The notes below the pieces were generated by a model. It worked only from the letters and a program-made list of their open reading frames with translations, searched no databases and was not told the DNA's origin. A DNA stretch of 64,000 nt from Actinomycetes bacterium (lineage in GTDB: Bacteria; Actinomycetota; Acidimicrobiia; Acidimicrobiales; Ilumatobacteraceae): contig JAIOPC010000002.1 in the NCBI GenBank assembly GCA_021414085.1, positions 1 to 64,000 of the forward strand, given 5' to 3'. A program made the translations under genes and the position numbers. How positions within the stretch are numbered: the first letter of the stretch is position 1; each line of letters begins with the position of its first letter. Below, piece by piece: positions 4,200 to 31,325 of this stretch.

Positions 4200-5936
4200 A
4201 TGTTGGTCCGGCTGCTTCGCACCTACCTGGCGCGGTATCGAAAACTGTTGATCGTGGTCGTCGCGCTCCAAGCGGCGCAGACGGTTGCGGCACTCTTCTT
4301 GCCGACGCTGAACGCCGACATCATCGACCGCGGCGTCGCCACCGGCGATACCGGCTACATCTGGGCACACGGGCTGGTGATGCTGTTGGTCAGCCTGGCG
4401 CAGATCGGTTTCGCTGTCTTCGCCGTCTACTTCGGCTCGAAGGTCGCGATGGCATTTGGCCGCGACGTGCGCAGCGCACTGTTCCACCAGGTCACCGACT
4501 TCTCAGCGCGCGAGGTCACCAAGTTCGGCCCACCGAGTCTGATCACCCGCGTCACCAACGATGTCCAACAGGTGCAGACGCTTGTGCAGATGACGTGCAC
4601 GCTGCTGATCGCGGCGCCCATCACCGCCGCCGGCGGCCTGGTGATGGCACTCCGCGAAGACGCTGGGCTGACGCTGATCTTGGCCGTTGGTGTTCCGCTG
4701 CTGGTCGTCAGCCTCGGCAGCATCATCGCGAGAATGGTGCCGACGTTCCGGCGCATGCAGGAACGCATCGACGATCTAAACCGCGTGCTTCGCGAACAGA
4801 TCTCGGGCATTCGTGTGGTGCGCGCCTTCGTGCGCGAGCCGTTCGAGACGGAACGCTTTGGCGCGAGCAACGGTCAACTCACAACCGTTGCACTGCGCGG
4901 CGGTCGCCTGATGGGGTTGATGTTCCCGACCGTCTTCTTCATCGTCAACTTCTCCAGCGTCGCCGCCATCTACTTCGGTGCCAACCGCGTCAATAGCGGC
5001 GAGCTGAAGATCGGTGCGCTGATCGCGTTTCTCAGCTACCTGTTGCAGATCCTGATGTCGGTGATGCTCGCCACCTACATGGCGGCGCTTGTGCCGCGGG
5101 CCGCTGTCAGCGCCGAGCGCATTCAAGAGGTGCTCGATACTCCTTCCAGCGTCGCCGACTCCGACAACCCGTTGCGCACGTTGCCGGAACCAGCGTCGGT
5201 CGAGTTCCGTGGTGCCGGGTTCCAATACCCGGGCGCCGAGCACCCAGTGCTGGCCAATGTCTCGTTTCGCTGCGTGGCTGGCGAAACAACGGCGATCATC
5301 GGCAGCACCGGCTCGGGCAAGACAACGCTGATCAGCCTGGCCGCTCGCCTGTTCGATGTCACCAGTGGTGCGGTGCTGATCAACGGTGTTGATGTGCGCG
5401 AGCTGGCAACCGACGCGCTGTGGCAGCGCATCGGGCTGATGCCGCAGCGGCCGTACCTCTTCGGCGGCACCGTCGCCAGCAACCTGCGCTACGGCAAGCC
5501 CGACGCCACCGAAGAACAGTTGTGGCAGGCGCTCGAGATCGCGCAGGCGGCCGACTTCGTGCGCGAGATGCCCGATGGGCTGGAGGCACGCATCGCCCAG
5601 GGTGGCAGCAACGTGTCCGGCGGCCAGCGCCAGCGGCTGGCCATTGCTCGCGCGCTGGTGCGCAAGCCGGCCATCTTTCTGTTCGATGACTCATTGTCGG
5701 CGCTCGACATGGCGACCGACGCGCGACTGCGCGCCGCGCTCGTGCCCAACACTCGCGACGCGGCCGTGCTGATCGTCTCCCAGCGGGTTACCAGCATCAA
5801 ACACGCTGATCAGATCTTGGTGCTAGAAGATGGCGAACAGGTTGGGCTCGGCACGCATGCGCAACTGCTGGAGTCGTGCCCTACCTACGTGGAGATCGTG
5901 CACTCACAGCTCACCGACGATGAGGCCGCGGCATGA
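4200..5936 (+). CDS. ABC exporter subunit A with degenerate ATP site
   Basis: Type IV ABC exporter half-transporter of 578 residues: six membrane helices in the first ~310 residues, then a nucleotide-binding domain. Walker A is GSTGSGKTT, the Q-loop is LMPQRP, and the signature NVSGGQRQR is intact. The Walker B ends FLFDD rather than DE, and the switch position is Gln in IVSQRV instead of His. Both are the non-catalytic substitutions seen in heterodimeric exporters such as TM287/288 and BmrCD. The next gene overlaps by 4 bases and supplies the partner. Likely role is export of lipid, drug or another hydrophobic substrate across the cytoplasmic membrane; the substrate cannot be told. The ATG at 4200 lies only 11 bases from the divergent NERD gene. 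Confidence 0.93.
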   Translation: MLVRLLRTYLARYRKLLIVVVALQAAQTVAALFLPTLNADIIDRGVATGDTGYIWAHGLVMLLVSLAQIGFAVFAVYFGSKVAMAFGRDVRSALFHQVTDFSAREVTKFGPPSLITRVTNDVQQVQTLVQMTCTLLIAAPITAAGGLVMALREDAGLTLILAVGVPLLVVSLGSIIARMVPTFRRMQERIDDLNRVLREQISGIRVVRAFVREPFETERFGASNGQLTTVALRGGRLMGLMFPTVFFIVNFSSVAAIYFGANRVNSGELKIGALIAFLSYLLQILMSVMLATYMAALVPRAAVSAERIQEVLDTPSSVADSDNPLRTLPEPASVEFRGAGFQYPGAEHPVLANVSFRCVAGETTAIIGSTGSGKTTLISLAARLFDVTSGAVLINGVDVRELATDALWQRIGLMPQRPYLFGGTVASNLRYGKPDATEEQLWQALEIAQAADFVREMPDGLEARIAQGGSNVSGGQRQRLAIARALVRKPAIFLFDDSLSALDMATDARLRAALVPNTRDAAVLIVSQRVTSIKHADQILVLEDGEQVGLGTHAQLLESCPTYVEIVHSQLTDDEAAA

Positions 5937-7828
5937 ACAAGCCCGCAACACCTGCGCCGTCGGCCAGCGCGAACGAACTGCGCGGCGGACGCATGAACAC
6001 GATCGGCGTGCCCACCGAGAAGTCGAAGGACTTCGCCAACTCCAGTCGGCGCTTGCTGCGCCGCCTCGGTCCCGAACGCCCGAAGGCCTTCTTGGTGTTG
6101 CTGTCGGGCGTGCTCAGTGTTGGCCTGGTGGTTTCGGGGCCGAAGGTGCTTGGCCACGCGACGAATCTGATCTTCGACGGACTTACCCGCCGCAACAAGG
6201 GTGGCGCTGGCATCGACTTCGCCGCACTGCATCGGGTGCTGTGGTTGGCAGCCGGGCTGTACTTCGTCGGCTTCCTTCTGTCCTATCTGCAGGCGTACCT
6301 GCTGGCCGGGGTCGTTCAGCGAACGATGATGCGCCTGCGGGCGGAGGTCGAGGCGAAGCTGCACGCGATGCCGTTGTCGTACCTCGATACGCAGGCCCGC
6401 GGCGACCTGTTGAGCCGTGTCACCAACGACATCGACAACGTTTCGCAGAGCACACAGCAATCGCTCAGCCAGTTGCTCACCGGTGTGTTGACCATCGCGG
6501 GCACGTTGGTGATGATGATCGTGATCTCGTGGCAACTGGCAATCGTCGCCATCGTCACCGTGCCGCTGTCCATCATGGTGATGAAGACAATCGCCGGGCA
6601 TTCCAAGGGCCGCTTCATCGCGCAGTGGAAGCATGTCGGCTCGCTGAACGCACAAGTCGAAGAAACCTTCACCGGTCACCCGATTATGAAGGCGTTCGGT
6701 CGCCAGCGCGAGACGCAAGCCCGCTTCGACGAAACAAACGAAGAGCTGTTCAAGGCAAGCTTCGCCGCGCAGTTCATCAGTGGCTGCGTGCAACCGGCGA
6801 CAGTGTTGATCGGCAACCTCAACTACGTCGCGATCGCAGTGCTTGGTGGCTTGCGCGTCGCCAACGGCACGCTTGGCCTTGGCGATGTGCAGGCGTTCAT
6901 TCAGTACTCGCGGCAGTTCGCGCAACCGCTCACGCAAACGGCGTCGATGGTCAACGTGTTGCAATCCGGCATCGCTTCGGCAGAGCGCGTATTCGAAATC
7001 CTCGACGCACCCGAGCAGAGCGCCGACCCGACCTTCAGCGAGTCGCAGCGTGCGCGCGCCACCGCCACGACGGTAGAGCGCACTGGTCGCATCGCGTTTG
7101 AGGATGTGTCGTTCAGCTACCGGCCCGACGTGCCGTTGATCGAGCACCTGTCGCTGGTGGCCGAGCCGGGCGAGACGGTCGCGATCGTCGGCCCGACGGG
7201 TGCTGGCAAGACCACGCTCGTCAACTTGATCATGCGGTTTTACGAGCTTGATGCGGGCCGCATCACGCTCGATGGTCGCGACATCACCACCTTGCGGCGC
7301 CACGACTTGCGCAGCCAGATCGGCATGGTGCTGCAGGACACGTGGCTATTCGGCGGCACCATCCGCCAGAACATCGCCTACGGAAACGTCACCGCGACCG
7401 ACGAAGAAGTGCGAGCAGCCGCCAAAGCGTGTTACGTCGACCGTTTCGTGCACTCGCTGCCCGCCGGCTACAACACGGTGCTAGACGACGAGGGCAGTTC
7501 GGTGAGCGCCGGCGAGCGTCAGCTGATCACGATTGCCCGCGCGTTCCTCGCCAACCCGTCGATCCTGATCCTCGACGAAGCAACCAGCTCGGTAGATACC
7601 CGCACCGAGGTGCTGATTCAGCGGGCGATGTCGAAGCTGCGCGGCGGCCGTACAAGTTTCGTGATCGCGCACCGGCTGTCGACCATTCGCGATGCCGACA
7701 CGATTTTGGTGATGGATAGCGGGCGTATCGTTGAACAGGGCTCACATCAGGACCTGCTGGCGCGTGGTGGCGCCTACCTGGCGCTCTACAACGCTCAGTT
7801 CAGTGGTGCTGCTGTCGACGTTGTTTAG
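5933..7828 (+). CDS. ABC exporter subunit B with catalytic ATP site
   Basis: Second half-transporter, 631 residues, starting at the ATG of an ATGA overlap with the first subunit, so the two are translationally coupled. A ~60-residue N-terminal extension precedes six membrane helices (a long one near LVMMIVISWQLAIVAIV) and a nucleotide-binding domain. Walker A is GPTGAGKTT, Walker B is LILDEATSSVD with the catalytic Glu, and the switch His is present in VIAHRLSTI. Its signature is SVSAGERQL, i.e. SAGER instead of SGGQ. That altered signature faces the degenerate Walker site of subunit A, so one of the two composite ATP sites is inactive while the other is complete. Exported substrate unknown. 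Confidence 0.94.
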   Translation: MNKPATPAPSASANELRGGRMNTIGVPTEKSKDFANSSRRLLRRLGPERPKAFLVLLSGVLSVGLVVSGPKVLGHATNLIFDGLTRRNKGGAGIDFAALHRVLWLAAGLYFVGFLLSYLQAYLLAGVVQRTMMRLRAEVEAKLHAMPLSYLDTQARGDLLSRVTNDIDNVSQSTQQSLSQLLTGVLTIAGTLVMMIVISWQLAIVAIVTVPLSIMVMKTIAGHSKGRFIAQWKHVGSLNAQVEETFTGHPIMKAFGRQRETQARFDETNEELFKASFAAQFISGCVQPATVLIGNLNYVAIAVLGGLRVANGTLGLGDVQAFIQYSRQFAQPLTQTASMVNVLQSGIASAERVFEILDAPEQSADPTFSESQRARATATTVERTGRIAFEDVSFSYRPDVPLIEHLSLVAEPGETVAIVGPTGAGKTTLVNLIMRFYELDAGRITLDGRDITTLRRHDLRSQIGMVLQDTWLFGGTIRQNIAYGNVTATDEEVRAAAKACYVDRFVHSLPAGYNTVLDDEGSSVSAGERQLITIARAFLANPSILILDEATSSVDTRTEVLIQRAMSKLRGGRTSFVIAHRLSTIRDADTILVMDSGRIVEQGSHQDLLARGGAYLALYNAQFSGAAVDVV

Positions 7829-19155: not shown

Positions 19156-20133
19156 CTATTGGGTCATTGGTACACGAACGCCTGCTGACCGTCGCCCGCG
19201 GTGAATTCCGCGCACCGCAACAGCTCCGGCGCCGATCAACGGACCCTGATCAGCAAGGCGCACGGGTGTGATGCGTGCGCCGCGGGCAAACGACAGCTTG
19301 GCGTGTTCATCCAGTGCCGCCTGCGCCGAGTTGAAGAACGTCGCCGCGAAGCCGAGAGCGACCGACCCGCCAACGACCACCAGGTCGAGGTCCAGCAAGT
19401 TGCACACGGACGCGGCACCAATACCGACCAGTCGGCCGGTGCGTTGCATGATCTCGTACGTCGGCTCGGTGGGCGAACGACCAGTGATTGCCGCGATCGC
19501 CAATCCCGATGCTTCCGCTTCTAGGCATCCCTGCGAGCCACACTCGCAGCGACGACCGTTCGGCTCGACGATGATGTGACCCACATGGCCAGCGTTGCCA
19601 GTCGCGCCATCGAGCAGCTGGCCATTCAGCACCACACCACCACCGATCCCGGTGCTGACCACCATCGCCAGAAAGTTTTGCTTGCCCACTGCCGCGCCTA
19701 GCCAGCCCTCGGCCAACGCCAGCGCCTTCGCGTCGAGCTCGCCGTACACAGGCAACGAGGTGGTGGCCGCCAGCCGCTGACGCAAGGGAAACTCGCGCCA
19801 CGCGAAGATGTTGAGCGGCGAAACCGTTTCCGCACCGATCGAAATCGGACCCGCACAGCCGACGCCAACCGCAATCGGGCTCATGCGGTGATGCTGACGT
19901 GCCCGCGTGATCTGCTGGTCGACCGCCTCCGCGAGAACGACGAACAACTCTTCAGACTTCAACCCGTGGTCGACGGGAACCTGGGCGCGATCGATCAGCT
20001 CGCCCTGCATCGTCATCAGCCCGACGGCCATCTTGGTGCCGCCGATATCGACGGCAACCACAACGTCGCCGCCAACTACTCGTGGCTTGGCCGCTCCGTC
20101 AACGGCTTGTGGGTCGACCTCGTCAGCTGACAC
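19156..20133 (-). CDS. ROK family sugar kinase, probably glucokinase
   Basis: Cytoplasmic sugar kinase of about 325 residues. The ATP phosphate motif is VAVDIGGTKMAVG near the N-terminus; the catalytic Asp lies in YGELDAKALALAE; the zinc site is CECGSQGCLE, the ROK CxCGxxGCxE signature, with GHVGHIIV supplying the sugar-contact His. No helix-turn-helix precedes the kinase domain, so it is an enzyme, not a NagC-type repressor. Glucose is the likeliest substrate in actinobacteria, though N-acetylmannosamine or other hexoses cannot be excluded. GTG at 20131-20133 was chosen; the open frame reaches a TTG at 20151. Confidence 0.88.
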   Translation of the reverse strand: MSADEVDPQAVDGAAKPRVVGGDVVVAVDIGGTKMAVGLMTMQGELIDRAQVPVDHGLKSEELFVVLAEAVDQQITRARQHHRMSPIAVGVGCAGPISIGAETVSPLNIFAWREFPLRQRLAATTSLPVYGELDAKALALAEGWLGAAVGKQNFLAMVVSTGIGGGVVLNGQLLDGATGNAGHVGHIIVEPNGRRCECGSQGCLEAEASGLAIAAITGRSPTEPTYEIMQRTGRLVGIGAASVCNLLDLDLVVVGGSVALGFAATFFNSAQAALDEHAKLSFARGARITPVRLADQGPLIGAGAVAVRGIHRGRRSAGVRVPMTQ

Positions 20134-20332
20134 GCCGCGCTGTCTCGACAAGGAACTTCTCGGTCACGGCTACACCGTATCGGTCTTGCCACGCGGTGTC
20201 GGAAGCGGTGTCCCTCGGACAAGATCCAAGAAGTGTCCAAATCTGGCCACGATTTTGGAAAGTTCTGCCAAACGATCCAAACCTGTTGCACAGTTCCGGC
20301 GTGTCCTCTCTGTGGAAACGTGGTCCATCGCA

Positions 20333-20860
20333 ATGAGCGAGGGAGTCAGCATCGATGACGCTCAGGTAATCGTCGTTCGTGACAGCCTCGATTCGCTCTT
20401 TCGGGCGAACTATGCCCGACTTGTGCGCGCCCTCGCGGTGGTCTGTGGTCAGCAGGAGGCTGCCGCCGATGCCGTGCAAGAGGCATTCGTCAAGGCCCAT
20501 CTGCACTGGCGGCGCATCGAGAACTACGACGACCCGGTGGGATGGATTAGAAGAGTGGCAATCAACCAACTTCGTGACGAACACCGCCGGGTTGGCCGCA
20601 AACAACGGGCGGTAGAGCGGTTGCAAAATGAGGAACGTCCGGCAACCGTTGACTGGTCCGACGGTTCCGACGTAGCCGCGCTGCTCGCTGCGCTACCCCG
20701 CCAGCAGCGACTCACGCTCGCGTTGTTCTATGTGGAGGGGCTGAGCGTCGCCGAGGTTGCTCAAACGCTGCGCATCAGCGAGGGTGCCGTCAAATTCCAC
20801 CTTCATCAAGGTCGCGACCGGCTGCGCCTATCGCACGCAACAGAACAGGCAACACGCTGA
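20333..20860 (+). CDS. ECF-type RNA polymerase sigma factor
   Basis: Sigma-70 family ECF factor of 175 residues with region 2 (DSLFRANYARLVRALAVVCG, then AADAVQEAFVKAHLHWRRI) and region 4 (ALLAALPRQQRLTLALFYVEGLSVAEVAQTLRISEGAVKFHL). There is no region 3 or C-terminal extension. The frame is open from 19907, but the protein starts at the ATG at 20333, where the sigma fold begins. Its stop overlaps the start of a one-helix membrane protein by one base (TGATG), the common sigma/anti-sigma arrangement. The 180-base leader upstream likely carries the promoter; no clear GGAAC-type self-recognition pair was found. Confidence 0.92.
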   Translation: MSEGVSIDDAQVIVVRDSLDSLFRANYARLVRALAVVCGQQEAAADAVQEAFVKAHLHWRRIENYDDPVGWIRRVAINQLRDEHRRVGRKQRAVERLQNEERPATVDWSDGSDVAALLAALPRQQRLTLALFYVEGLSVAEVAQTLRISEGAVKFHLHQGRDRLRLSHATEQATR

Positions 20861-24040: not shown

Positions 24041-26992
24041 TCAGTGAGGAGAGCCGCTGCGCTGACGCGCGGCGACGTTGTTCCCCAGGTAGCTCTCTAT
24101 CACGTCGGGATGGGCCAAAACGTCAGCTGGCAACCCGGACGTCAGAACGGCGCCCTGATCGAGGGCGATCAACCGATCGCTGACCGAGGAAACCAGCGGT
24201 ATGTCGTGCTCAATGACCAGCAGGCTGGCACCCATTTCGTCGCGCAGGCTGCGCAGTACCGGCGCCAGTGCCTCGACCTCGCGTTGCGCGATCCCGCTCG
24301 ATGGCTCGTCGAGCAGAACCAGTACTGGTCGGTGGGCAGCGATGCAGGCGAGGTCGACAACGCGACGGGTACCGGTGCTGAGCTCGCGCACGAATGTGTT
24401 GCGGTACTCGCCAAGGTGCATCAGCTCGATGAGCTCGCCGACCCGCAACGCAGTCCGTTCTTCATCGTCGAACACGGCCGGCAGACGCAGTGCCGCGGCC
24501 ATTGCGCTGCGACTCGCGACCCAGCGTTCGAGCGCAACGGCCAGCGTGTCAGTCACCGTCATGTCGGGGAACAGCCGCGCATCCTGAAAACTGCGGCCCA
24601 GCCCACGCGCGGCACGCCTGCTTGCGCTGAGCGCAGTGATGTCGTTGCCTTCGAACTCGATGCGCCCGGAATCAAGCGGAACGAAGCCACTGATCAGATC
24701 GAAGATCGTGGTTTTGCCGGCACCGTTGGGGCCGATCATGCCAACGATCTCGCGCGGGCCGACGTCGAACGACGCACCATTGACCGCGCGATTGCCGCCG
24801 AACGCGCGAGCGATCTCGATAACGCGCAACACCGGCGTCGCATCGGACTGGGCGGCGCGTGCCGCAACCTTCACCGGCTTGGCGCTCGCTGACTTGCTGC
24901 TCGTTGCGCCGTCAGAGAGAAACACGGAGCGCAACAAGTCGGTGCGTCCGAGCAGCTCCGCCGTTGGGCCACTGAAGCGAATCGTCCCGCGCTCCATGAA
25001 GTACGCGCGCTCGGCCACCGTGAGCGCGACATTGACGCTCTGCTCAACGAGAATCACGGCGGTGCCCTCAGCGGCGATCCGCTGCACGAGGGGCAGGATC
25101 TGACCGATCACCACCGGCGCAAGCCCGAGCGACAATTCGTCGATCAACAGCACCCGCGGCTTGGCGACAAATGCCATGCCCAGCGCGAGCATCTGCTGCT
25201 GGCCACCACTCAGGTCGCCCGCCGATCGCTGCAGGCGATCGCGCAGAACAGGAAACATTTCGAGCACGTCGTCGATCGCTTGATCGCGCGCTGTCGGCTC
25301 GTGCCGTCGGGTCCAGCCAGCGAGCTGCAAGTTCTCGCGCACTGTCAGACCGCCGAACACACCGTGCCCACCTGGCATCTGGCTAATGCCGAGCACTGCG
25401 ATCTCGTTCGGTGGAGCATGTGTGATGTCGCGACCATCGAGCACGATCGCTCCACTATCGGCCTCGACCACTCCGCTGATCGCCTTCAGCATCGTGCTCT
25501 TGCCAGCACCATTCGTTCCGAGCAACGCAACGACCTCGCCCTCCTTGAGATCGAAGTCGACGTCGAAAAGCACTTGCCGGCCTTCGTAACCGGCGTTGAC
25601 GCCGCGCAGCAGCAGCAAGTCGGCCTCACCCCGCCGACGTTGCAACAGCGCCTCGCTGCGCGCCGCCGACGACTTCCAAACCTGCGCAATGTCGCCGTTA
25701 ATCGTGTTTTGCGCCGAACCAAGAATCAGGCTGCCAATGATGAACAGCGGCACCAGCGTGAGCATGCCCCAGCGAATTCCGATGTGGCTGCTGATCCAAC
25801 CAATCAAGGGCAGCACGAGCAATCCGGGGATCACCCACAGCGATGCGACCGAGAAGCCGGTGGCGCGGGCGCGGGCCGGGATTGCAAGCGAGAGCGCAAC
25901 GAGAATGCCCGGGCCGACAATCGCCAGCGTCGCGGAGATCACGCAGTTGAAGATGACAGCAACGACGATGTTGGGGGCAACCGCAAAGCCAATCGCGACG
26001 ATCGATGTGAGCATGGCAATGCGGGCGACGAAACGAACGAGCGCGGCCATGTCGCTCATGAACCGCTTCGTGATGTACCGCGTCCCCACGACGAGACCGA
26101 CCAACTGGAATGGCTCGGCGATAGCAGACGCGATGCCGCGGCCGCGTTCGTCGAGGTTGAACTTCTCCTCGTAGAGCAACGACGCCAGCACCACAAAGCC
26201 GATCAACGCCGTCGCCAGGAAGGGCAAACTCCACCACAGCCGCTGCAGCGTCGGGATCTTCTGCACCGTGCGCCAACTCTCGGCAAACGATGGCACGACT
26301 TCTTCGGTGTTGGCGACATCGTCGCTGGCGCCCATCGCCGCCCGCTCCCACTTACCACGCACCGGCTCGCGTAGTCGCAGCGCCATGACGGCGAAGATCA
26401 CTGTCGGGAAGACGAACACGATGAACGGAACTCGCCAGTCGAAGCTGTAGGCCAGCAGGCCAGCGACCAGCGGACCAACAAACGCGCCAATCGCGTTGGC
26501 GGCGCGATGGGTGCTGAAGACTTTGCTGCGCGTCTCGATCGGGTAGTAGTCGGCGAGCAACGAGTTGTGGGTCGGGTCGATGACCGCTTTGCCGATGCTG
26601 CTCCCGCTGCGCGCGATCGTCAGCAGCACGACACCTGTCGCCAGCCCGGTCATGCCGCTGAACAGCGCCCACACCAACGCGCCTGCGATTGCCAACGGCA
26701 CCCGCTTGGTGCGGTCGGCGTACTGTGCGATTGGAACCTGCAGCGCCAAAGCTGCCACCGATGCCAAAGCGACGAGGCTGAGCACTTTCGTGTTGTTGAG
26801 GTTGAACTCGTCGCGAATGTTGGGCAGCAAGATGGCGAAGGCCGTTCGATCTAACTCATCAACCGCGTTGAGCCCGAACAGCACCACCAGCGGAAACGCC
26901 GACTCTCCGCCACAGACGTCGCGCAGCCAGTTCATCGGGTGCGCGACATGCCGCATGAATCGCTGAGCAAGCTTTGGTTGCACGCCGCTCAT
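24041..26992 (-). CDS. Triple fusion: MFS transporter, LivF-type ATPase, LivG-type ATPase
   Basis: One uninterrupted 983-codon frame. Residues ~30-430 are a 12-helix major facilitator with the loop motif YADRTKRVPL (91-100) and DPTHNSLLADYYP. Residues ~460-700 are a LivF-like ATPase: Walker A GTNGAGKS (492-499), LSGGQ (594-598), Walker B LLIDE (615-619). Residues ~720-975 are a LivG-like ATPase: Walker A GPNGAGKT (754-761), signature LSTGT (871-875), Walker B LLDE (893-896), HD switch (929-930). It overlaps the fused permease gene by four bases and precedes the binding protein, so both ATPases of one liv-type importer are joined to a secondary transporter. The LivG signature departs from LSGGQ. 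No frameshift or internal start was seen that would separate the parts. Confidence 0.88.
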   Translation of the reverse strand: MSGVQPKLAQRFMRHVAHPMNWLRDVCGGESAFPLVVLFGLNAVDELDRTAFAILLPNIRDEFNLNNTKVLSLVALASVAALALQVPIAQYADRTKRVPLAIAGALVWALFSGMTGLATGVVLLTIARSGSSIGKAVIDPTHNSLLADYYPIETRSKVFSTHRAANAIGAFVGPLVAGLLAYSFDWRVPFIVFVFPTVIFAVMALRLREPVRGKWERAAMGASDDVANTEEVVPSFAESWRTVQKIPTLQRLWWSLPFLATALIGFVVLASLLYEEKFNLDERGRGIASAIAEPFQLVGLVVGTRYITKRFMSDMAALVRFVARIAMLTSIVAIGFAVAPNIVVAVIFNCVISATLAIVGPGILVALSLAIPARARATGFSVASLWVIPGLLVLPLIGWISSHIGIRWGMLTLVPLFIIGSLILGSAQNTINGDIAQVWKSSAARSEALLQRRRGEADLLLLRGVNAGYEGRQVLFDVDFDLKEGEVVALLGTNGAGKSTMLKAISGVVEADSGAIVLDGRDITHAPPNEIAVLGISQMPGGHGVFGGLTVRENLQLAGWTRRHEPTARDQAIDDVLEMFPVLRDRLQRSAGDLSGGQQQMLALGMAFVAKPRVLLIDELSLGLAPVVIGQILPLVQRIAAEGTAVILVEQSVNVALTVAERAYFMERGTIRFSGPTAELLGRTDLLRSVFLSDGATSSKSASAKPVKVAARAAQSDATPVLRVIEIARAFGGNRAVNGASFDVGPREIVGMIGPNGAGKTTIFDLISGFVPLDSGRIEFEGNDITALSASRRAARGLGRSFQDARLFPDMTVTDTLAVALERWVASRSAMAAALRLPAVFDDEERTALRVGELIELMHLGEYRNTFVRELSTGTRRVVDLACIAAHRPVLVLLDEPSSGIAQREVEALAPVLRSLRDEMGASLLVIEHDIPLVSSVSDRLIALDQGAVLTSGLPADVLAHPDVIESYLGNNVAARQRSGSPH

Positions 26993-29064
26993 GCTGAGTC
27001 CTGCTCTTCCGCTTCGAGTTTCGTCGCATGCGCCTCATCGATACGCGTGCCCGTGAGCAGTCTCACCACGACGTCGCGCAGCTTGACCCACAAACTGCCG
27101 AGTCCGCCGGGCAGCACCAACAGCACCAGCAAGACCCCGGCACCTGTCGAGAGCAATTGCCACGTCGAGTCGTTGATGAACCAACGCGTGCCTCGCAAGT
27201 AGAGCGCACCCAGCAACGCGCCGCCTAACGAGCCCAGGCCACCAATGACCGCCGTGATGAACACGGTGAAACCTTCACCCGTGCTGTAGCTGCTGACGCT
27301 GAAGGCTTGGTTGAGGTGCGCATACAGCGCGCCGCCGACACCAGCGACGAAGCCGGAGACGACGAAGGCGGTCAGCTTCGCGCGCACCACATCGACCGAG
27401 AAGCTCTGCGCGGCACGCTCGTTCTCGCGAACGGCAATGATGACTCGGCCCGCGCGCGAGCGGCGGATGCCGCGCAAGCCCAGAAAGATCAGCGCACCCA
27501 CCACAACCGAATAGGCGTAGTAGCGAGTGGGCGTGTCGATGCTGAAGCGACCGAACAGCGGCGGTCGTTCGAAGCGTTGCTCGGCCGCAGGGAACCAACC
27601 GAAGAAGCGGGAGTTGAGCAGCCACGAATCTGTCGCCAGCGCGAACGCGAACGTGGTGACTGCGAGGTACAACCCGCGCAAGCGCAACGCTGGCACGCCG
27701 ACCGCAAACGCGGCGACCGCACCAGCGACACCCCCGATCAGCAGACCGAGCGTGAGGTCCACGTTCCATCGCGAGGTGACGGTGGCGCTGACTGCCGCAC
27801 CGATGCCAACGATTGCCATCTGTCCAAACGAGACCTGCCCCGCCCACCCGGTGAGCACGACAAGCGACATTCCGATGATGGCGAACGCGATCACGGCTGA
27901 TGCCTTGATGACGTAGTCGACGCGCAGGACCATCGGGAGCAGCACGACCACCGCCGCACAGAGCACCAACAGCGCGTATCGAACCGCCTTGACGGATCTG
28001 TGCGCGGCTAGGCGCCGCGGTAGCGGCCGCACTTCCTCCGCTCCGCGCCAACTGCTGGTGGCGTCGATATCGCGACGGCTGAAGCTGCCGCGCTGCGCAA
28101 GCAGGGCGACGAACATCGCGGCGGCCATGATCGGGTACGCGAGCAACGGCGTGTCCGAGTTGCTTTGCACGCCGAACTCGAGCAGGCGCAGCACCGTCGC
28201 CGCGACCGCAATGACGACCAAGTTCTCCATGCGTCCGATCACCAGCGCGGCCAGTGCAATCAGGAATGTCGGCAGCCCCTCCGCATATCCGATCGGCACA
28301 CCGGTGATGCCGCTGCGCAGAAACAACGCAATGAACGAGAGAACTGCGGCCAACATCCACACAACCGTGTTCAAGCGGCTGACCGGAATACCCAACATCG
28401 CTGCCCGGTCGCTTCGTTCAGCCGATGCTCGAATGGCAGTACCCAAACGACTGCGATTCAAGAACCAGCCAACGAACAACAGCGCGAGCGGGGCGACAAT
28501 CATTGCAATGATGTCGTTGCCCCCGAGAATGAACTTGCTTGAATCGGGTCGCCACGGGGGCCAACTCGTCGACAGCGTCAGCTTCCAGTCGACTGGCGAA
28601 GTGATTCGCTGGCTGGCGAGGTTTCGCCCCCACCAGCGCGGTACCAGGATGCCCAGCACCAACAACAGCTGTGAGATACCAATCGTCGCGACCATCATGA
28701 CCATGCGCGGCGAATTCCGGAAACGACGCACGATCGCCATCTCGACCACCAGGCCGAGCACTAGTGCAAGCAGCAACCCGACGCCGAGGCCGACGAGGTA
28801 CGGCCAACCCCAGAACAGCATCAACGCTGCCGCGAAACCGACGGGCACCGAACCCATGTCGGCCTGTGCGAAGTTGACGACTCGGTTGGCGCGATAGATC
28901 AGCGCCATTCCGATCGCGAGCATCGCCGCCAGCAGCCCGAGTATCAGTCCTCGGGTCCACAGGCCAAGCGGCATGCCGAAGAAGAACAGTTGAATCGCCA
29001 GCAACGCCGCAATCGTGGGCGCGGCAACAACGAGTGTGTCGTTGCGCTTCCCCAAGCTCCCCAC
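26989..29064 (-). CDS. Fused LivH-LivM permease of the liv-type ABC transporter
   Basis: Single 691-residue membrane protein that joins the two permeases of branched-chain amino acid type importers. Residues ~1-330 match LivH (LLAAMLAIGMALIYRANRVV, NFAQADMGSVP, AERSDRAAMLGIPVSRLN, with the GITGVPIGY region). After a charged linker (residues ~345-375, SFSRRDIDATSSWRGAEEV), residues ~380-690 match LivM (AIIGMSLVVLTGWAGQVSFGQ, LRLRGLYLAVTTFAFA, AVRENERAAQSF, VFITAVIGGLGSLGGALLGA). GTG at 29062-29064. The gene ends in a 4-base overlap with the MFS-ATPase fusion, so permease and ATPases are made together. Substrate is most likely amino acids, amides or urea; undetermined. Confidence 0.9.
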   Translation of the reverse strand: MGSLGKRNDTLVVAAPTIAALLAIQLFFFGMPLGLWTRGLILGLLAAMLAIGMALIYRANRVVNFAQADMGSVPVGFAAALMLFWGWPYLVGLGVGLLLALVLGLVVEMAIVRRFRNSPRMVMMVATIGISQLLLVLGILVPRWWGRNLASQRITSPVDWKLTLSTSWPPWRPDSSKFILGGNDIIAMIVAPLALLFVGWFLNRSRLGTAIRASAERSDRAAMLGIPVSRLNTVVWMLAAVLSFIALFLRSGITGVPIGYAEGLPTFLIALAALVIGRMENLVVIAVAATVLRLLEFGVQSNSDTPLLAYPIMAAAMFVALLAQRGSFSRRDIDATSSWRGAEEVRPLPRRLAAHRSVKAVRYALLVLCAAVVVLLPMVLRVDYVIKASAVIAFAIIGMSLVVLTGWAGQVSFGQMAIVGIGAAVSATVTSRWNVDLTLGLLIGGVAGAVAAFAVGVPALRLRGLYLAVTTFAFALATDSWLLNSRFFGWFPAAEQRFERPPLFGRFSIDTPTRYYAYSVVVGALIFLGLRGIRRSRAGRVIIAVRENERAAQSFSVDVVRAKLTAFVVSGFVAGVGGALYAHLNQAFSVSSYSTGEGFTVFITAVIGGLGSLGGALLGALYLRGTRWFINDSTWQLLSTGAGVLLVLLVLPGGLGSLWVKLRDVVVRLLTGTRIDEAHATKLEAEEQDSA

Positions 29065-29100: not shown

Positions 29101-29835
29101 CTACGCGAGGCCGGGATGGAGCGCGGCGAGGGTCGCCGGCAGCGCGACCGCGTCGGTGGTGAACAGCAGATCGTGATCGGTGATGACGAACTGTTGGGCT
29201 AGCAACCACGCGGCCAGCGGATGCATCTCAGGCACGTACAGCTTCACATTGGTGCCAGCCTCAAAGGCACGTAACAGCTGCTGGCATTCGTCGATTGCGT
29301 TCACAGCATCCAGGCGCAGCACCTCCACTCCTGTTGCTCCAATCAGCACGACCGCGTTCGGAGTAATCACCGCGCCGCGCCCGACGAAGTAGCCGACGAG
29401 TTCGTCGCGACCGTGTATCCACCCGCCTGGCACCAACTTCGGTCCGCCACCGATGGCGGAGCCCGACAGGTAGAGCATGCGACAGCGCGGCGCCATGCCC
29501 GCCCGTCGATACGCCGACTGCGCGGCGGGATGCTGAGCGCTAAACGTCATCGACTGCGTTCGACCGGCCAACAACTCGGCCAGCAGTCGACCACCGACAC
29601 CCTGACCCCGCGCGGCTTGAGCCACGAATAGATCGGTCACCATCGCTATGTCAGCGACGGGAACCATCCCGGCGAAAGCCACGGCGGTCTCGTCAACGGT
29701 CGCGCAGAGCAACTGCCCGGTCGCCCTGATGAACGACAGGTACACCGAATCGCAGTTGTCGAAGTCGCCCTCCGCCGCGATCTGAATCACACGCTCGTCG
29801 TCGCTCGGCAATGCGGGTCGGATGGTGAACTCCAC
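29101..29835 (-). CDS. GNAT-family N-acetyltransferase
   Basis: GCN5-related acetyltransferase of about 244 residues. The acetyl-CoA loop is AQAARGQGVGGRLLAELL near residues 90-107, after a beta strand IAMVTDLFV; the N-terminal EFTIRPALPSDDE is a normal GNAT start. The second half (FVGRGAVITPNAVVLIG, VLRLDAVNAIDECQQLLRAF) looks like a second degenerate GNAT domain, as in tandem GNAT proteins. The open frame begins at a GTG at 29895, directly abutting the plus-strand gene at 29896; the GTG at 29833-29835, which starts at the GNAT fold, is more likely. Substrate unknown. Confidence 0.8.
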   Translation of the reverse strand: MEFTIRPALPSDDERVIQIAAEGDFDNCDSVYLSFIRATGQLLCATVDETAVAFAGMVPVADIAMVTDLFVAQAARGQGVGGRLLAELLAGRTQSMTFSAQHPAAQSAYRRAGMAPRCRMLYLSGSAIGGGPKLVPGGWIHGRDELVGYFVGRGAVITPNAVVLIGATGVEVLRLDAVNAIDECQQLLRAFEAGTNVKLYVPEMHPLAAWLLAQQFVITDHDLLFTTDAVALPATLAALHPGLA

Positions 29836-29895
29836 CTCACCAGCTTGGCAGGATGACAAGTCTGCGGCCTGCGCAACTGGCAGGCTATTGCGCAC

Positions 29896-30480
29896 ATGAT
29901 TCGTAATCGCCTGCTTGTGAGCGCGCTGTCGTTTTGCGTCGCGTTCGGCGCGGCGTGCTCAAGCAATGGCGCCGGCGGTGGCCCGCTGTTCACCACACGC
30001 CAGTCGACGATCGCGCCGACCAGCATCGAGCTGCCCACCACCTCGTCGGAGCCAACGACCACGATAGAGACGACGACCACCACGACGCTGCCGCAAACTG
30101 TCACCACCCTGCCGCTTGAGCTCGCCGGCGGCGTCGTCAAGGTCGCGAACGCAACCGAGGTCGAGGAGGCCGCGCAGCAACTGACCAACGAGCTTGCCGG
30201 GGTGGGGTTCGCAGTTGCGGAGGCGACCAACTCGGCCGGCAAGGACGAGGAACTCTCGACCAGCAAGATCTACGTAAAGGCTGGCAGCGAAGCCGTTGCT
30301 CAATCGGTCGCCTACTTGATGGGCGGCATCGAGGTCTTGCGCATGCCAACTCCGGCGTGGATCTTCGGCGGCACGGCGGCGCTCGGCGACACCACTGTGC
30401 TGGTGATGTTGGGCAGCGATCTCGCGGGCAGTCCGTTGCTGGTGATGCGCTTCGAGCCTGGCCGGCAAGGACCCGATTGA
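29896..30480 (+). CDS. Lipoprotein with LytR_C-like domain
   Basis: Secreted lipoprotein of 194 residues: signal peptide LLVSALSFCVAFGAAC with the lipobox Cys near residue 21, a Thr/Ser/Pro linker of about 45 residues (EPTTTIETTTTTTLPQTV), and a C-terminal domain resembling LytR_C (VVKVANATEVEEAAQQLTNELAGVGF, ending VLVMLGSDLAG). In actinobacteria this domain is found on cell-wall proteins of the LytR-CpsA-Psr type and alone. It has no catalytic module, so it may be a wall-anchored binding domain. The stop overlaps the start of the YihY gene by one base. Confidence 0.72.
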   Translation: MIRNRLLVSALSFCVAFGAACSSNGAGGGPLFTTRQSTIAPTSIELPTTSSEPTTTIETTTTTTLPQTVTTLPLELAGGVVKVANATEVEEAAQQLTNELAGVGFAVAEATNSAGKDEELSTSKIYVKAGSEAVAQSVAYLMGGIEVLRMPTPAWIFGGTAALGDTTVLVMLGSDLAGSPLLVMRFEPGRQGPD

Positions 30481-31325
30481 TGGCGGCTCCCGATTGGAGC
30501 ACGCACCCGCGGGTGATGAAGCTGCGTCGACGTTCGAAAGCTGGCAACACCTTGGTTGTCACCATTCAGAACTTCCGCTCGCATCGCACTGGTCGCCACG
30601 CCGCGCTCGTCGCGCACTACGGCTTCCTGTCCGTGTTCCCACTGCTGCTGGTTTTCACGACGATCCTCGGCTTCGTATTGCAGAACCGCCCGCGACTTCG
30701 CGACCAGATCATCGACTCCGCGTTCAATCGCATTCCGATCATCGGCGAGACGCTCAGAAAGAACCCCCAGGAATTGAAGGGCAGCACTCTGGTGCTGATC
30801 CTCGGCTTAGTCGCCGCGCTGTGGGCTGGTATGCGTGCGTTCAACGTCTTGCAAAGCGCACTTGATGACGTTGCCGAGATTCCGATGAACAAGCGGCGGA
30901 GTCTGCTGCGAACACGCGCTCGCTCTTTGCTCGGCATCGCTGTCGTCGGCGGGGCGCAGATCGCGACCGCTGTCCTGACGTCGCTCGTCGCGGTCAGCGG
31001 AGTGCGAGTGCTGCACAGAGTGCTACTCGTCGCCGGCGCCGTCTTGGTGAACACCTTCGTGATCGCCGCCGCCTACCGCTGGTTGTGCGTACGCCGCTTT
31101 TCATGGCGACAGGTCGCGCCGGGCGCGATCGCGGCTGGTGTCGTGTTTGCTGCGCTCCAGATTGTGGGCACCGTTGTGGTCGGCCGCGCCATCGCAAACG
31201 CGGACGCGGTGTACGGCACGTTTGCATCCGTCATCGCGCTCTTAACGTGGCTCAGCCTGCACGCTCTTATCGCGCTCGTCGGCGCCGAACTGAATCATGC
31301 CTTGCCAGCCCGCCGCTACGCGTAG
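30480..31325 (+). CDS. YihY/UPF0761 family inner membrane protein
   Basis: Integral membrane protein of 281 residues with about six helices. Family landmarks are HAALVAHYGFLSVFPLLLVF, AALWAGMRAFNVLQSALDDV, VIAAAYRWLC, RFSWRQVAPGAIAAGVVFA and YGTFASVIALLTWLSLHALIALVGAELN. The family was once called ribonuclease BN (Rbn) by mistake; its true function is unknown, with proposals of lipid or solute transport. The ATG at 30480 overlaps the stop of the upstream lipoprotein gene, suggesting co-translation. The frame is open further upstream to 30357, but that lies inside the lipoprotein gene. Confidence 0.85.
   Translation: MAAPDWSTHPRVMKLRRRSKAGNTLVVTIQNFRSHRTGRHAALVAHYGFLSVFPLLLVFTTILGFVLQNRPRLRDQIIDSAFNRIPIIGETLRKNPQELKGSTLVLILGLVAALWAGMRAFNVLQSALDDVAEIPMNKRRSLLRTRARSLLGIAVVGGAQIATAVLTSLVAVSGVRVLHRVLLVAGAVLVNTFVIAAAYRWLCVRRFSWRQVAPGAIAAGVVFAALQIVGTVVVGRAIANADAVYGTFASVIALLTWLSLHALIALVGAELNHALPARRYA

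Follow-up and report, generated by a model that had tools for sequence, protein, structure and literature searches.

Primary transport, driven by ATP, and secondary transport, driven by gradients, are treated as separate classes, and a single gene that appears to encode both raises the question of what a secondary carrier would be doing on the same chain as the motor of an ATP-binding cassette (ABC) importer. Such a gene is present in a 64,000-nucleotide stretch of DNA (hereafter the window; contig JAIOPC010000002.1, positions 1 to 64,000) from an actinomycete of the Ilumatobacteraceae, whose 3.2 Mb genome comprises 18 contigs. The gene product joins a carrier of the major facilitator superfamily (MFS) to a LivF-like and a LivG-like nucleotide-binding domain (NBD), and its operon reads fused LivHM permease, MFS-F-G fusion, substrate-binding protein (SBP). 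We conclude that this is a real and conserved hybrid, unreported within the literature that we searched, and a variant of the Liv-type importer with a tethered MFS. The parts of the locus are the following.

24041..26992, minus strand: MFS-LivF-LivG fusion protein P0001, 983 residues, supported by a single open reading frame, Pfam and an AlphaFold model
25673..26911, minus strand: MFS carrier domain, residues 28-440, Spns-like, with twelve long helices in the model
25622..25672, minus strand: MFS-to-LivF linker, residues 441-457, helical up to 453 in the model
24908..25621, minus strand: LivF-like NBD, residues 458-695, with Walker A at 492-500, LSGGQ, E619 and Q651
24848..24907, minus strand: F-G linker, residues 696-715, of low model confidence and variable length across the family
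24077..24847, minus strand: LivG-like NBD, residues 716-972, with Walker A at 754-762, LSTGxRR, E896 and H929
26989..29064, minus strand: fused LivH-LivM permease P0002, 691 residues
22275..24023, minus strand: substrate-binding protein P0003, 582 residues, type I periplasmic-binding-protein fold with a hydrophobic N-terminal helix

The fusion frame runs from an ATG at 26992 down to 24041 with zero internal stops. Pfam places MFS_1 on residues 39-385 (E 1.6e-35; 123 bits, cut-off 33.4) and ABC_tran twice, and a BCA_ABC_TP_C match at 949-971 only just exceeds its cut-off (25.7 versus 25.5 bits). The AlphaFold model, computed for the single chain from a 116-sequence alignment, has a mean predicted local distance difference test score (pLDDT) of 92.7 and a predicted TM-score (pTM) of 0.86, and DSSP detects in it twelve long helices ahead of the two NBDs. 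The original prediction of a 12-helix MFS and two complete ATPase domains in one open frame was thereby confirmed, and its positions for motif A (91-100) and the Walker A motifs (492-499 and 754-761) were close to those measured, approximately 89-98 (D93, R94, R97), 492-500 and 754-762. A chance match to the MFS could be ruled out from Pfam, the profile match to solved structures and the AlphaFold model. The adjoining LivHM permease and binding protein that had been proposed are both found in the same operon: the LivHM gene, with two BPD_transp_2 stretches (Pfam, E 5.2e-48), lies upstream and overlaps the fusion gene by 4 bases, and the binding-protein gene lies downstream, after a 17-base gap if its earliest possible start is taken.

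The same domain order was searched for in other genomes. A scan of named genomes for the MFS domain by itself yielded 200 relatives, and the best 80 were retained. A single frame encodes MFS-F-G in 72 of these 80, of which 67 are whole and 5 reach a contig end; the remaining 8 loci are cut by a contig end, and none of the 80 has a whole MFS without NBDs. Carriers of the fusion (loci are designated here by L numbers) include Ilumatobacter nonamiensis YM16-303 (L150), Candidatus Microthrix (L147, L149, L165) and the complete genome CP011489.1 (L160). A first sample, composed of the window's own genome and 60 relatives, gave a match at 1e-30 in 61/61, many through the NBDs only. The class sample gave matches at 1e-90 in 117 of 395 genomes, NBD-only relatives included, and at least 86 genomes have a match spanning the MFS into NBD-F; in the phylum sample 23/396 match at 1e-70, including four genomes from other classes that carry fused forms (L181-L188). 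The host group is largely made up of uncultured actinobacteria. Three records titled Bifidobacterium breve or Acidobacteria (L129, L130, L146) carry an Acidimicrobiia-type operon and are probably mislabelled metagenome bins. The possibility that the fusion might be absent from all close relatives therefore fails, and the MFS-LivF junction, which is far more constrained in length than the F-G junction, bears no trace of a frameshift or assembly error; such an error was rejected on the strength of the 80 consistent loci, the fixed linker and the complete genome. We found no account of an MFS-ABC fusion in the open-licence PMC literature, which agrees, for open-licence papers, with the earlier statement that no mechanism of this kind had been described; annotation databases may well list the architecture.

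Among 142 distinct fused proteins, the MFS-F linker measures 17 residues in 129 and 18 in 7, with outliers of 8, 8, 8, 13, 19 and 33 residues, and the F-G linker ranges from 9 to 92 residues (standard deviation 16.9). In the model a helix at 431-453 (pLDDT 90-96) follows the twelfth transmembrane helix (TM12, 406-429), with the first strand of the NBD beginning at 460; residues 692-708, between the NBDs, have a pLDDT below 50. A length-fixed MFS-F link beside a freely varying F-G link is what would be expected from an MFS held in a given orientation; the fixed length falls short of proof for mechanical coupling.

A second architecture, present in another lineage, divides these parts between two adjacent proteins, MFS-F and LivH-LivM-G. 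It was detected in the window's own genome as well (L271), and in a replicon of Embleya sp. NBC_00888, a member of the Streptomycetaceae (L280). Its MFS-F linker spans 15-19 residues in 18/18 proteins, and further MFS-F proteins have 17 (L274), 19 (L280) and 44 residues (L271). At L271 (contig C17) a frame of 137 residues separates the MFS-F and LivHM-G genes. Both architectures have one MFS per LivF. Forms devoid of MFS exist too, either as LivHM-F-G single chains or as operons of LivHM followed by F-G. The single-chain LivH-LivM-LivF-LivG cores are 1232-1327 residues long (L072, L082, L087, L088, L089, L266), and one MFS-less F-G protein (L081:7648-9867) has an N-terminal extension of about 200 residues with several hydrophobic stretches, as judged by eye.

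The two NBDs fall short of the NCBIfam equivalog cut-offs for LivF (249 of 441 bits) and LivG (280 of 362 bits), which follow a narrow equivalog definition, so that "LivF-like" and "LivG-like" are the safe wording. UrtE (307 bits) and LptB (292 bits), each matching in two stretches, score above their own NCBIfam cut-offs; the likely cause is that the score of the whole protein sums two NBDs. A relative with one NBD reaches 197 bits with UrtE, and a UrtE or LptB identity was set aside as probable score inflation. The LivF-like NBD has a Gln (Q651) at the position of the switch His in 116/116 aligned rows, and the LivG-like signature LSTGxRR (residues 870-877) is found in all or nearly all of the 116; together they lead us to expect one degenerate and one normal ATP site. 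In Foldseek searches both NBDs match one-chain NBD pairs, such as DppD of ATP-bound DppABCD (8wdb_D, E 3.1e-25).

The best solved-structure match of the MFS profile was 6e8j (E 4.5e-43) with its sister entries, followed by the D-galactonate carrier. We take 6e8j, 6e9c and 6eba, titled "Major facilitator family transporter", to be HnSpns, a bacterial MFS of the Spns type. PMC9440201 names the HnSpns residues D41, R42, D60, D87, R91, W102, T106, R122, E129, D142 and R289, in a numbering that fits the 6e8j sequence. Conservation was counted over 143 fused MFS domains aligned to 6e8j. The motif-A relay D93/R97/D148 (Spns D87-R91-D142) is kept in 143, 143 and 142 of them, Spns D41 (D48 in P0001) in 136, R42 in 115 and R122 (R128) in 138. 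H142 of P0001, an Ala in 6e8j, is His in 129, and the mostly conserved D45, E46 and H142 are extra relative to HnSpns. A degenerate, dead MFS was rejected on account of the conserved gating residues; as judged from the alignment, the gating machinery is retained and the proton switch altered. In the MFS tree HnSpns was placed in the outgroup, on a long branch, with a support of 35 for the branch separating it from the family.

We then asked how the five parts diverge together, by correlating their pairwise identities across operons. From 146 fused systems with full domains and LivHM, 129 were distinct and 105 had an SBP match (over 400 positions within 6 kb). The 24 operons left aside comprise 9 cut by a contig end, 2 with the SBP in two frames, 1 with a shorter match and 12 with none nearby. 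Removal of operons at least 90% identical in the MFS left 89. In this set the highest of all Spearman coefficients was that of MFS-SBP (0.877), ahead of HM-SBP (0.713), MFS-HM (0.689), NBDG-HM (0.664), NBDF-NBDG (0.641), NBDF-HM (0.605), NBDF-SBP (0.578) and NBDG-SBP (0.540). MFS-SBP ranked first in 500/500 half-samples, and in 499/500 within the close group of 77 operons. At 200 columns for each domain, over all 105 operons, it reached 0.839 against at most 0.632 for the others, and after correction for noise 0.921, followed by NBDF-NBDG (0.835) and NBDG-HM (0.815); for comparison, the two halves of the SBP correlate at 0.882. The sole null used was a Mantel test (p 0.001). Among the 67 closest operons MFS-SBP exceeds MFS-HM by Spearman (0.784 versus 0.733), and MFS-HM is slightly higher by Pearson (0.891 versus 0.879). 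Across the whole set two groups emerge: the MFS pairs with the SBP, the NBDs with the permease, despite the fact that the MFS shares its chain with the NBDs and that, in operons of the window's type, the LivG segment separates it from the SBP in the DNA. When MFS columns were sorted into regions that we assigned from the DSSP of the P0001 model, those in the membrane followed the SBP best (0.815), then the periplasmic (0.772) and cytosolic ones (0.719), and NBD-F was followed more closely by cytosolic (0.619) than by membrane columns (0.467). In 19 operons of the second architecture the SBP again fits the MFS best (0.552 versus 0.365-0.379), a rough figure given that some SBP frames are over-long or lie between two operons. 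A ligand shared by MFS and SBP would be the simplest reading of this co-divergence, direct contact between them a bolder one.

We therefore favour, at what we would call even chances, a composite uptake system: an ABC importer with a tethered MFS carrier for the same ligand as its binding protein. An ordinary ABC importer of the HAAT type would be formed by LivHM, the two NBDs and the SBP. To these parts the Spns-like MFS would add a ligand-specific fifth, able to work by alternating access and itself to move the ligand of the binding protein, presumably inwards. The short, largely helical TM12-LivF link would hold it beside the importer, so that ATP-driven and gradient-driven routes would stand 1:1 within one complex, perhaps with cross-talk between the state of the NBDs and the gating of the MFS. 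Since both ATPases needed by LivHM sit on the MFS chain, a working ABC core would carry the MFS along, and the second architecture again ties one MFS to one core. Also in favour is L266, one of the 2/9 stand-alone MFS genes located within 4 kb of a Liv-type operon (the other being L270): it is divergent to an SBP and LivHM-F-G operon, with one gene of 442 residues in between. Of the two options offered by the original prediction, a fixed complex is thus supported by inference from the shared chain, the short length-fixed linker and the second architecture; coupling of two transport modes is upheld as a functional link, through MFS/SBP co-divergence, and stays hypothetical as energetic coupling.

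Several observations weigh against this combination of a normal importer and a tethered carrier. By our reading of the NBD tree, MFS-less systems are nested among fused ones at least three times: F-G systems without MFS fall inside fused clades (L083 with L055, support 99; L085 and L086 with L060, support 99; L084 with L222, support 89). The ABC core thus seems to run without the MFS, and an obligate role of the MFS for it was rejected. In the MFS tree, stand-alone MFS proteins lie inside fused clades (L266, L267, and L080, at a contig end, with L176). The NBDs of the operon beside L266 group with MFS-less chains, away from the fused systems nearest to the MFS of that locus. On the same side stand the coefficients for MFS-NBDF (0.552) and MFS-NBDG (0.524), among the lowest in the 89 operons; the 12 most distant operons, where by Pearson HM-SBP (0.794) exceeds MFS-HM (0.695) and MFS-SBP (0.683); the second architecture, where the best partner of the MFS is NBDG (0.860) and not the SBP; and the exceptional 44-residue linker of L271. 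Two elements of Spns are mostly missing as well. The proton-switch E129 is replaced by Lys in 76 and by Arg in 36 of the 143 (K135 in P0001), and the periplasmic salt bridge D60-R289 is not preserved, with D in 14/143 and R in 19/143, in an alignment that may be one residue off near R289; proton coupling, if any, must therefore differ from that of Spns.

The remaining features of the trees concern how the parts come and go. Another stand-alone MFS group lies near the root of the MFS tree together with L271, which groups with a stand-alone MFS (support 86), so the second architecture is not one clade; some groupings in both trees rest on long branches. Both trees together suggest repeated loss and repeated detachment of the MFS; either half could apparently exist on its own. 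SBPs of the same family are kept by 11 of the 12 MFS-less systems examined. The SBPs of L085 and L086 are 0.34 and 0.38 identical to those of their closest fused relatives, where fused pairs at similar NBD identity have a 5-95% range of 0.45-0.80; their permeases are also further (0.51 versus a median of 0.71), the L086 SBP reaches 0.49 with a second relative, and these two cases were left unused. Conversely, twelve divergent fused systems (L061, L063-L065, L067-L071, L073, L187, L188) have no SBP match, or a weak distant piece only, in the fetched stretch. All twelve belong to one 14-member clade of the MFS tree, whose other two members (L186, L279) have an SBP, and they possibly represent a form without a binding protein of its own.

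The length-fixed and largely helical link could also be taken as a relay, through which the NBD cycle would act on the MFS so that the carrier itself is ATP-driven or ATP-gated, with ArsA acting on the carrier ArsB as a precedent. The Lys or Arg at the Spns proton switch (112/143) and the cytosolic MFS columns, which co-vary with NBD-F more than the membrane columns do, would fit such a carrier. We nevertheless hold it unlikely, as MFS-NBD co-divergence is low overall, the MFS has been detached or lost in several lineages and the NBDs already have LivHM to power. If instead the SBP docked on the MFS and passed its ligand to it, with or without LivHM, the SBP would be expected to follow the MFS (0.877) more closely than LivHM (0.713) and periplasmic MFS columns to follow it well (0.772), as they do, and the second architecture points in the same direction. 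It is, however, the membrane and not the periplasmic columns that track the SBP best, a shared ligand fits equally well, MFS-less systems retain a same-family SBP (11/12) and one fused clade is mostly without a nearby one; we regard an MFS fed by the binding protein as quite unlikely.

The MFS might also move nothing and be a transporter-like receptor, reading the ligand and setting the activity of the ABC core. Its 1:1 tether to the motor subunit, its dispensability and its altered proton switch would suit a sensor, but the motif-A relay is practically invariant, as expected of a cycling carrier, and stand-alone MFS copies exist; we give it the same low chance as an ATP-gated carrier. That the MFS is a passive scaffold, or the fusion a product of annotation or assembly, seems highly unlikely: each half is indeed found alone, but the 80 named loci, a complete genome and a non-metagenome genome among them, fit a real fusion, the gating residues are conserved and the linker is fixed. 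An artefact in particular is strongly disfavoured.

What the tethered carrier and its importer would transport is approached through the SBP and the gene neighbourhood. The model of P0003 (pLDDT 91.0, pTM 0.86) resembles in fold proteins that bind branched-chain amino acids, fatty acids and aromatic acids, at about 10-14% identity, with 4xfk, 4n03 and 4f8j (TMt 0.63-0.67) among its type I matches; P0003 has no Pfam match at 0.001. In Pfam scans, considering the top 25 families in each case, no dominant pathway emerged among the neighbours of 23 chosen divergent fused loci (116/154 called neighbours), of 13 second-architecture loci (75/97 neighbours plus one binding-protein frame) or of the stand-alone MFS loci (47/73 listed neighbours plus 7 from L266, L273 and L176). 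Nor do the scanned flanks of the window indicate a pathway: they encode a sigma factor, a GNAT acetyltransferase and a YihY-type protein, besides two proteins that Pfam leaves unmatched. L271 is adjoined by an amidohydrolase, a metallo-beta-lactamase-fold protein, a mandelate-racemase-like enzyme and a thiamine-pyrophosphate enzyme, a set that hints at organic or aromatic acids, and an organic acid is a plausible ligand.

Other genes were noted in the window. Near the operon these are:
19907-20860, plus strand: sigma-70-type factor (Pfam)
29101-29895, minus strand: GNAT acetyltransferase, on the strand of the operon and 36 bases upstream of LivHM
30357-31325, plus strand: YihY/BrkB-type membrane protein
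Further away, two overlapping frames on the plus strand (4200-5936 and 5933-7828; 578 and 631 residues), each with a C-terminal NBD match, look like a heterodimeric ABC exporter pair.

In one bacterial lineage, a single chain thus unites a carrier of either transport class around a shared motor; at least two architectures occur, and the apparent natural losses and splits serve as controls. With this small set of proteins, the driving or gating of an MFS by an ABC ATPase, or its feeding by a binding protein, becomes directly testable, and so would be the idea that ATP reaches the carrier. HAAT-type importers (LivFGHMJ/K, UrtABCDE) have the same LivH/LivM permease, two distinct NBDs and a type I binding protein; here LivH and LivM are fused, the NBDs are fused, and a 12-helix MFS carrier precedes LivF. 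With HnSpns the fused MFS domains mostly share the motif-A relay and D41, R42 and R122; they differ from it in the E129 switch, mostly Lys or Arg, in D60, which is rarely kept, and in being fused to ABC NBDs. The ArsA ATPase energises the secondary carrier ArsB, which works alone or with its ATPase partner; ArsAB is likewise a secondary carrier with an ATPase partner, but its proteins are unrelated and unfused and form an exporter. In TRAP transporters, as described in PMC8276074, a binding protein works with a secondary carrier; unlike the fusion, their membrane domain belongs to the ion-transporter superfamily and there is no ABC motor. The nearest functional case met in the literature searched (PMC8399759) comes from Rhodococcus jostii RHA1, where the ABC importer CamABCD and the MFS carrier CamM serve related metabolites; unlike the parts of the fusion, these are named as separate genes and each handle different metabolites.

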